Source: a virus | DNA: 21,580 nucleotides | IMG/VR virus record: IMGVR_UViG_3300025728_000042 | Coordinates: 1-21,580 of that record | Strand: one strand, 5' to 3' | Position numbers and translations under genes: made by a program | Shown here: positions 12,395 through 13,722 of the stretch, one piece after another | Position numbering within the stretch: position 1 is the stretch's first letter | How the letters are laid out: each line of letters begins with the position of its first letter | Notes under the pieces: generated by a model | Seen by the model: only the letters and a program-made list of their open reading frames with translations | What the model was told of the DNA's origin: nothing | Database searches by the model: none

Positions 12395-13092
12395 TCACCG
12401 CTGGTTCTGTTGCCTCCGCAGGTACGCAGCCGCCTTACGGTTCTGCTTCTGCGATTCCGCGCGACGCTGCGACGCGTACTCCGGCTCCGGGTACGGCTTC
12501 GGCTTCTCGCCCTTCGACTGCCGCATCCGGTAGTCGAGGACCCGAACCTGGAAGTCGAGCCCGTACAGCGCACGCTCCTCCGGCGACCACGACGCCGGAC
12601 CACCGACAGAACGCCAGAAAGCGCAGCCCGCCGGGAACCACGCAACAAGATCAGCAAGATCGAACGGCGAATACTCACCCCGCACAGTGCGGAGATTCAC
12701 TCCATAGACAGCCCTGAGCGACGCCCGCAACGCATCCGAATGATGCGCGAGTCCGACGCTCAGGATCAGGAGTTTGGGTTGATCGTCCCCAGCACGGCCA
12801 TGAGGAACGCGGTCACCTCAGTCAGCTTCACCCGCTTCGACTCCGGGTCACGCAGACCGTCGAGGACCGCCTGATAGTCATCGCCGAGGAGACGCTTCAG
12901 CAGCGATGGGACGATCGTCCCGTCACCGTTCTGCATCCGGACGAGCTCATCGAGCATCTCGTAGTCGTCGAGTGCTTCATCCCTGACGACCGCGGACGCG
13001 CCCAGATACTCAACCCTGTGCCCACCGGCCACCTTCGTGACCTTCGGCTCCGTCTGCTTCTCCTGATGATCTGCCGGCTTGCGTGCAGCCAT
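12395..13092 (-). CDS. Tail assembly chaperone GT fusion made by -1 frameshifting
   Basis: The 0-frame G product (108 aa) and the following frame join at a slippery heptamer at 12778-12772. After slipping, 125 more residues are read to a TGA at 12395, giving a 232-aa fusion. The added part is helical and basic at the end (RRAESQKQNRKAAAYLRR). G and GT proteins chaperone the tape measure while the tail tube polymerises, as in lambda. This position between major tail protein and tape measure is diagnostic. The downstream frame has only a TTG near 12730 and no ribosome site of its own, which supports expression by frameshift. Confidence 0.9.
12713..12778 (-). promoter_or_regulatory. Programmed -1 ribosomal frameshift signal
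   Basis: Slippery heptamer C CCA AAC (12778-12772) sits in the correct frame (X XXY YYZ). A 7-nt spacer follows, then an 8-bp perfect outer stem (12764-12757 with 12720-12713). The 36-nt interval between its arms contains a second perfect hairpin (CGCATC / GATGCG, 12747-12731). Slip site, spacer and downstream structure are the three classical parts of a -1 frameshift signal. Confidence 0.88.
12766..13092 (-). CDS. Tail assembly chaperone G (unshifted product)
   Basis: A 108-aa protein made by ribosomes that do not shift, expected to be the more abundant form. It has a charged, Lys-rich start followed by a helical chaperone core (DDYEMLDELVRMQNG, SLLKRLLGDDYQAVLDGL), and ends INPNS before TGA. 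The ATG at 13092 has AGGAG with 7-nt spacing. That ribosome site is itself part of a repeated 9-mer complementary to an upstream hairpin loop (see the regulatory feature), so translation may be controlled. The stop lies in the spacer between the slippery site and the downstream RNA structure. Confidence 0.9.
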   Translation of the reverse strand: MAARKPADHQEKQTEPKVTKVAGGHRVEYLGASAVVRDEALDDYEMLDELVRMQNGDGTIVPSLLKRLLGDDYQAVLDGLRDPESKRVKLTEVTAFLMAVLGTINPNS

Positions 13093-13094
13093 GA

Positions 13095-13159
13095 TTCGAC
13101 TCCTGGTTCTTCGACTCCAAAGTTGAGGCTGCTGGGGTGGGAGTCGAAGTCACCCCAGC
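13095..13159 (-). promoter_or_regulatory. Structured RNA element with loop complementary to the chaperone ribosome-binding site
   Basis: Directly after the major tail protein stop, perfect 9-bp arms (13159-13151 and 13139-13131) display an 11-nt loop containing TTCGACTCC (13148-13140). Its exact complement GGAGTCGAA occurs twice downstream, at 13118-13110 and 13103-13095. The second copy contains the chaperone gene's Shine-Dalgarno, so the loop could pair with it (pseudoknot) or with the first copy. The hairpin may also act as a terminator or RNA-processing stop, though no U-tract follows. The pairing is seen in sequence; regulation is inferred. Confidence 0.6.
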
Positions 13160-13170
13160 CGCCAGTCACG

Positions 13171-13722
13171 TCAGTCCTCGTCTTCGGTGACGACGCTCAG
13201 CACCGTGTAGGCGCCGATGATCTCCCCGATGAACGGGAACCCCGCGATGTCACTGTTCACGTACACCCGGTCACCGTCGGCGATGATCTCGAGCCGCGGG
13301 ATGACGATCCGCTCGTGAATCGTCACGTCATCCGAGTCGTACAGGTCGATGACCGCGGCGCGCGCGGAAACCTTCTGCCCCGGCCGGCGCTGCTCCGTCC
13401 GCACCCCGGCGGTCTCCGACGAGCTCGTGATGTCATACCGCAGCGAACGGGTCTGGGCCTTATCCTCGAGCGCCACGAACGACACCGTCGTACCGGGCGT
13501 CTCGATCCGCGTCCGGACCACACCGTTACCCTGATGCCCACGGATCTCCGACTTCGAACCCGTCGGGGTCTCCGTGATGCCGTCGGAATGCAGCCACCCG
13601 ACATCCTCGAAACCGGTCAGCGCGCCGCTGATCGTCGTGGGCAGGCTCGTCCCGACGGGGGCGAGATGGATCGCATCGATGTCGGACCCGAAGTTCCGGG
13701 CGTTGGCAGCGTTCACGGCCAT
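13171..13722 (-). CDS. Major tail protein (tail tube)
   Basis: A 183-aa protein whose hexamers would form the tail tube. Support comes from its place before the chaperone pair and tape measure, its size, and family-like features: an N-terminal motif on positional identity (NFGSDIDAIHLAPVGTSLP), GALTGFEDVGWLHSDGITETP, and a beta-rich core. The acidic C-terminus (VVTEDED) is common in actinophage tube proteins. The start at 13722 has a near-perfect AAGGAG with 6-nt spacing, as expected for a highly expressed gene. It is flanked by a terminator-like hairpin upstream and a structured element downstream, so its mRNA may be a discrete, stable unit. No C-terminal Ig-like domain is fused. Confidence 0.9.
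   Translation of the reverse strand: MAVNAANARNFGSDIDAIHLAPVGTSLPTTISGALTGFEDVGWLHSDGITETPTGSKSEIRGHQGNGVVRTRIETPGTTVSFVALEDKAQTRSLRYDITSSSETAGVRTEQRRPGQKVSARAAVIDLYDSDDVTIHERIVIPRLEIIADGDRVYVNSDIAGFPFIGEIIGAYTVLSVVTEDED

Follow-up and report, generated by a model that had tools for sequence, protein, structure and literature searches.

The stretch analyzed here, hereafter the window, comprises 21,580 nucleotides of the 21.6-kb virus record IMGVR_UViG_3300025728_000042, in which the virion genes lie on the minus strand. The gene for the major tail protein (MTP; 13171 to 13722, minus strand; PHROG 117, E value of 2.9e-22; Pfam Phage_TTP_17) is separated by a gap of 78 nt, from stop to start codon, from the gene for a G-like tail chaperone (12766 to 13092, minus strand), which was assigned from its position, a fusion in the -1 frame, and a match to PHROG 1526, a family of unknown function. 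The gap contains a hairpin followed by two copies of the complement of its loop, and it is this arrangement, with G as the gene that would be regulated, that we describe here.

Read 5' to 3' on the minus (coding) strand, the order is hairpin (13159 to 13131), copy 1 (13118 to 13109), copy 2 (13103 to 13095), and the ATG of G; as RNA, the hairpin GCUGGGGUG-ACUUCGACUCC-CACCCCAGC is followed by a spacer, GGAGUCGAAG (copy 1), and GGAGUCGAA (copy 2). The 5' arm of stem S1 (GCTGGGGTG, 13151 to 13159) and its 3' arm (CACCCCAGC, 13131 to 13139) form nine perfect pairs, and beyond one mismatch three further pairs extend them to 13163 and 13127, so that the MTP stop codon lies 7 nt before the extended hairpin. 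Within the loop (ACTTCGACTCC, 13140 to 13150), positions 13140 to 13149 are the exact complement of the 10 nt of copy 1 (GGAGTCGAAG, 13109 to 13118), and positions 13140 to 13148 are also complementary to copy 2 (GGAGTCGAA, 13095 to 13103). A spacer, L3 (13119 to 13130), separates the hairpin from copy 1, while copy 2 holds most of the Shine-Dalgarno (SD) sequence of G (AGGAG, 13104 to 13100, 7 nt upstream of the ATG at 13092). A sequence-only reading of this DNA had described a perfect 9-bp hairpin between MTP and chaperone genes, with the loop complement present twice downstream and the SD in the second copy; every sequence detail of that description was confirmed, and the gene identities were borne out by PHROG and Pfam.

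The same reading held that the arrangement was unlikely to arise by chance, and our results agree. None of 1,000 dinucleotide shuffles of the downstream segment of the window matched the loop equally well. When every hairpin on either strand was scored blindly in the window, Arthrobacter phage BaileyBlu, and the first 50 kb of Mycobacterium phage TM4, the MTP-G gap ranked at the top in all three, with scores of 19, 17, and 16, respectively (the next hit in the window scored 12). Other hits, scoring 12 to 14, came up about as often in shuffled genomes; the combination of hairpin and copies appeared once in each of the three genomes scanned, in the MTP-G gap. The minimum free energy of the hairpin region was unexceptional (z of -1.18) with a folding program that has no pseudoknot model. 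A fourth exact GGAGTCGAA is found at 12836 to 12844 (minus strand), within the coding sequence of G. We treat it as probably due to chance, since an equivalent is generally absent in relatives (one 8-mer each in TM4, Shambre1, and locus L094).

Searches for relatives at the DNA level gave almost no matches, and the chaperone protein used as a query retrieved no relatives among viral contigs. An exact-pattern scan of IMG/VR for the loop and copy of the window was also empty, as expected because the sequence of the element is not conserved. The MTP protein, on the other hand, retrieved 47 IMG/VR loci, phage records, and 8 loci in the genomes of Microbacterium, Mycetocola, Plantibacter, and Leifsonia. 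The MTP of TM4 reached much further (728 phage records; 25 cluster K loci). Most of the relatives found through MTP have the same layout after this gene, written in other letters. One has the loop CGGCTCC with the copies GGAGCCG and GGAGCC, the latter directly before the ATG; others have the loop CTGACCCCA with two copies TGGGGTCA, the loop CCTCCGAC with copies GTCGGAGA and GTCGGAGG, or the loop GGTGATGGCTC with the copy GAGTCATCACC-ATG. By the detector or by eye, the element was found in phages of Mycobacterium (TM4, Paito, and Gaia), Arthrobacter (BaileyBlu, Renna12, Shambre1, Urla, and Kepler), Gordonia (Phistory and, by eye, Gsput1), Rhodococcus (Sleepyhead), Rothia (Spartoi), Propionibacterium (B22 and, by eye, Doucette), and Microbacterium (BelmontSKP and vB_MoxS-R1). 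Among named records with a gap of at least about 80 nt, 14 of 17 carry it: 13 were recognized by the detector (in these phages and the window, 0 to 17 of 1,000 dinucleotide shuffles of the downstream segment matched as well) and Gsput1 was recognized by eye on a second hairpin.

The locus set used for statistics contains 55 distinct loci. The loop is complementary to two downstream copies at 6 or more of 8 positions in 52 of them, versus 21% of shuffles, and at 7 or more of 8 positions for both copies in 44, versus 83 of 5,500 shuffles (1.5%). The loops belong to at least 11 unrelated sequence families, and each time both copies follow the loop. Across 35 distinct loop segments, 95% of the loop:copy 1 pairs and 94% of the loop:copy 2 pairs are standard, percentages that are upper estimates, as the search takes the best register; 2,000 row permutations gave at most 54% and 57%, respectively. 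All four Watson-Crick pair types are present at most loop:copy columns (pairs were counted by script; a MAFFT alignment of the concatenated segments introduced gaps). Since the column register was itself set by pairing, a swap test is fairer: with 11 loop families, less than 70% identical to one another, the mean two-copy score was 16.3 with the phage's own segment versus 5.7 with that of another phage, own and swapped pairs being optimized alike, and none of 20,000 permutations reached the observed mean. The stem also varies among relatives, with compensatory changes. The sequence-only reading had called for a check of covariation among relatives and counted a lack of it as refutation; covariation is present, and very strong, for both copies.

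The anatomy of the element was summarized from 52 of these loci. The median stem has 13 bp and the median loop 13 nt, of which 3 (L1) and 2 (L2) remain unpaired before and after the pairing segment. The hairpin starts a median of 7 nt after the preceding stop codon, L3 spans 12 nt (middle half, 10 to 13), the copies are 8.5 nt apart (4 to 14), and copy 2 ends 5 nt before the start codon. The position of copy 1 is thus fixed with respect to the hairpin, that of copy 2 with respect to the start codon. L3 is poor in G and rich in C on the coding strand (9% and 41%). Copy 2 overlaps the SD core in 38 of the 52 loci and lies between SD and start codon in another 8, i.e., 46 at the ribosome-binding site (RBS), so that the common factor is the initiation region and not the letters of the SD. 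Some loci (L028, L032, L056, and cluster K) have a third copy. In one lineage (L042, L049, L051, L053, L059, L061, and L063), a small extra reading frame separates the MTP stop from the hairpin, which is found approximately 150 to 300 nt downstream of that stop and apparently still begins directly behind a stop codon.

Short L1 and L2 together with a single-stranded L3 able to cross the stem correspond to the classical plan of an H-type pseudoknot. Three features of translational leaders of this type are found here, namely, complementarity of the loop to a 3' segment with short L1 and L2 and a sufficient L3, compensatory change, and coverage of the SD or start region. The median duplex energies, calculated for isolated duplexes and not for whole pseudoknots, are -16.2 kcal/mol for copy 1, -15.3 kcal/mol for copy 2, and -9.3 kcal/mol for the anti-SD with the RBS; copy 1 is the stronger partner in 21 of the 52 loci and copy 2 in 19.

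An element conserved by its structure is almost certainly present in this gap, and covariation of both copies across at least 11 loop families gives good support to pairing of the loop with both sites, which, judging from the sequences, very likely takes place in the RNA. It is also likely that the element controls the translation of G. On balance, we think it probable that a cis-acting RNA element lies in the gap and sets the translation of the chaperone through two alternative pseudoknots. In the sense transcript, a GC-rich hairpin would present its loop, which could pair with copy 1 to give a compact pseudoknot 1 that leaves the RBS of G free, or with copy 2 to give pseudoknot 2, in which the SD or the SD-to-start region would be covered and ribosomes blocked. 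Since one loop segment serves both copies, the RNA could adopt only a single pseudoknot at a time; the two would be mutually exclusive and of near-equal strength. Copy 1 emerges first from the RNA polymerase, and pseudoknot 1 is therefore the expected default. Partitioning of the RNA between an open and a closed state in the cell would give a set, lowered rate of initiation at G, which would then not rely on direct coupling to the MTP gene, itself heavily translated. By its position beside the MTP stop, the hairpin may in addition prevent ribosomes that terminate there from moving on into G, which would separate the two genes. That the states really exchange, as in a switch, has a chance a little short of even, and a protein trigger is unlikely, tail proteins being the natural candidates. 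The sequence-only reading had proposed a pseudoknot or switch with copy 1 as a decoy, which could set the ratio of tube protein to chaperone; this proposal is supported in part. Pairing with both sites is well supported, but decoy is probably too weak a word, because copy 1 is held about 12 nt from the hairpin by a G-poor spacer, as in a real folded pseudoknot.

Several results weigh against this interpretation. The phages Maco7, Ziko, and MalagasyRose have the gap and the element was not found in them; BaileyBlu, Urla, and L035 have a copy 2 that pairs only weakly; and both the pairing percentages and the duplex energies carry the limits given above. Internal mismatches comprised 14 G-U versus 7 A-C (p of 0.09), and 22 versus 17 in a second count, so that wobble pairs are only suggestive of a function at the RNA level. 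Better arguments for RNA are the strand-specific composition of the spacer, the fixed sense order, and the position at the RBS.

These arguments bear directly on the idea that the repeats act in DNA, as operator or stoperator sites for a DNA-binding protein, inverted by chance in the hairpin. There are indeed three related copies, one of them inverted, and the wobble test is not significant, but the sense-strand order of hairpin, copy 1, and copy 2 at the RBS is fixed, the spacer is strand biased, the 13-bp stem is compensated, and the repeats do not recur elsewhere in the genome, all of which makes this explanation hardly credible. We give as little weight to the possibility that the copies are functionless and kept matched by template switching or gene conversion; mutation of this kind could, as a matter of general knowledge, change three nearby copies in concert, but the positions of the copies relative to hairpin and start codon are fixed over very divergent phages. 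The hairpin could also be merely a terminator, an RNA-processing site, or a stability element after the MTP gene, with incidental repeats, which would suit a GC-rich stem of 13 bp so close to the upstream stop. In the window, however, the core hairpin is followed by AGCCTCAACTTTGG, with no run of T that would give a U-tract, and since loop and both copies covary and the combination appears once per genome, in the MTP-G gap, we regard this as very improbable.

Two other explanations retain the pseudoknot and differ in how it would work. If only the pairing with copy 1 mattered, the structure might aid the loading of ribosomes on G, as in IncIalpha repZ, and pairing with copy 2 would be secondary. 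The tight spacing of copy 1 from the hairpin is in line with such an activator, and so is its greater strength in BaileyBlu, Spartoi, Paito, and Gaia; but copy 2, needless for an activator, covaries equally well and is the stronger partner in more than a third of the loci, and we find this version quite improbable. Alternatively, a phage protein in excess (MTP, G, or GT) might bind and lock one pseudoknot state, as with T4 gene 32 or rpsO, which would add a ligand to the two-pseudoknot element proposed here. Known pseudoknot operators act in this way (PMC3014915; PMC10931766), and a site after MTP and before G fits feedback. Such an autogenous operator seems improbable nonetheless: no RNA-binding protein was identified, and the letters of loop and copies are not conserved between phages whose MTPs are about 55 to 75% identical, so that any binding protein would have to read shape only.

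The relatives that lack the element have a different arrangement. In nearly all of them, the start of G lies inside the MTP stop or a few nucleotides from it; in the close relatives L027, L033, L047, L055, L068, L071, and L076, the two overlap or nearly so, in motifs such as GTGA and TGAGCATGG (locus position approximately 2500 to 2600). The element was likewise not found in Cracklewink, phiC31, Javan520, 63301, or lambda, in which the start of the chaperone gene coincides with the upstream stop or follows it closely, and in the Lactococcus, Streptococcus, lambda, and phiC31 records G begins 0 to 42 nt after the upstream gene, leaving no space for it. A gap with the element and stop-start coupling look like two alternative arrangements, and direct coupling seems to replace the element where the latter is missing. 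We see an even chance that many actinophages share a large family of RNA switches, with one loop, two competing 3' partners, and a shared structure without shared sequence, controlling the synthesis of tail chaperones instead of stop-start coupling.

Downstream in the window, a CCCAAAC slippery heptamer (12772 to 12778, minus strand) lies 3 nt before the TGA stop codon of G. Translation of the -1 frame shows it to be open past the heptamer down to 12395, giving the T part of a G-T fusion, and the open reading frame 3' of G (12395 to 12730) matches PHROG tail assembly chaperones; G and G-T are therefore probably made by frameshifting. G followed by a -1 frame extension is the usual G/GT arrangement, which places the RNA element directly before the chaperone gene. 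Compared with the tube protein, tail chaperones are expected to be needed at a fixed, low level, as established for lambda G/GT. Control of the chaperone gene at the level of initiation, in addition to that by the G/GT frameshift, appears both old and widespread. Having no conserved sequence, the element would have been overlooked by homology searches and by Rfam, which gave no matches at the gathering score for the window and 20 related loci.

We found no earlier description of the element in open-license papers, and in the portions consulted of a Microbacterium phage survey and of the papers on clusters K and J, we found frameshifts, SAS/ESAS, and other repeats mentioned, but not this element. 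Pseudoknots that cover an SD are already known; what is new here is that one loop has two competing partners and that only the structure is conserved across many lineages of actinophages. A compact pseudoknot with two partners would, if true, be a rare natural bistable RNA, and a review from 2010 names only one viral pseudoknot for autoregulation of translation (PMC3014915). In the rpsO/S15 (Escherichia coli and mycobacterial) and alpha operon/S4 operators, initiation is under the control of a pseudoknot located within or close to the RBS (PMC10931766). The present element resembles them in having a predicted H-type pseudoknot at the RBS and differs in its two or three alternative 3' partners per loop, its unconserved sequence, and the lack of a known ligand. 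As in the T4 gene 32 leader, a phage pseudoknot would lie upstream of a phage gene, but that of T4, from other phages and another gene, nucleates protein binding over an A+U-rich leader, and no alternative partners have been described for it. An operator of the T4 type was considered and rejected, as there is neither a far-upstream pseudoknot nor an A+U-rich leader; the spacer is C-rich and copy 2 lies within the RBS. In IncIalpha plasmids, the regulated gene, repZ, also has a pseudoknot a short way upstream of its RBS (PMC8383071); there the pseudoknot acts as an activator whose formation is opposed by a competing antisense RNA, and neither feature is known for the phage element.

In cluster K mycobacteriophages, SAS is a single conserved 13-bp sequence, present in 11 to 19 repeats in the non-structural half, and its authors find little support for RNA pairing (PMC3203893). 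SAS/ESAS and a similar motif in Microbacterium cluster EF share with our element the repeats at ribosome-binding sites and an upstream inverted repeat (PMC3203893; PMC7302621). Identity with SAS/ESAS was rejected, SAS/ESAS being defined by the 13-bp consensus GGGATAGGAGCCC in many copies at non-structural genes, whereas here the sequence is another, the gene is structural, and there is one element per genome. TM4 carries the present element at gene 14-15, separate from its SAS/ESAS.
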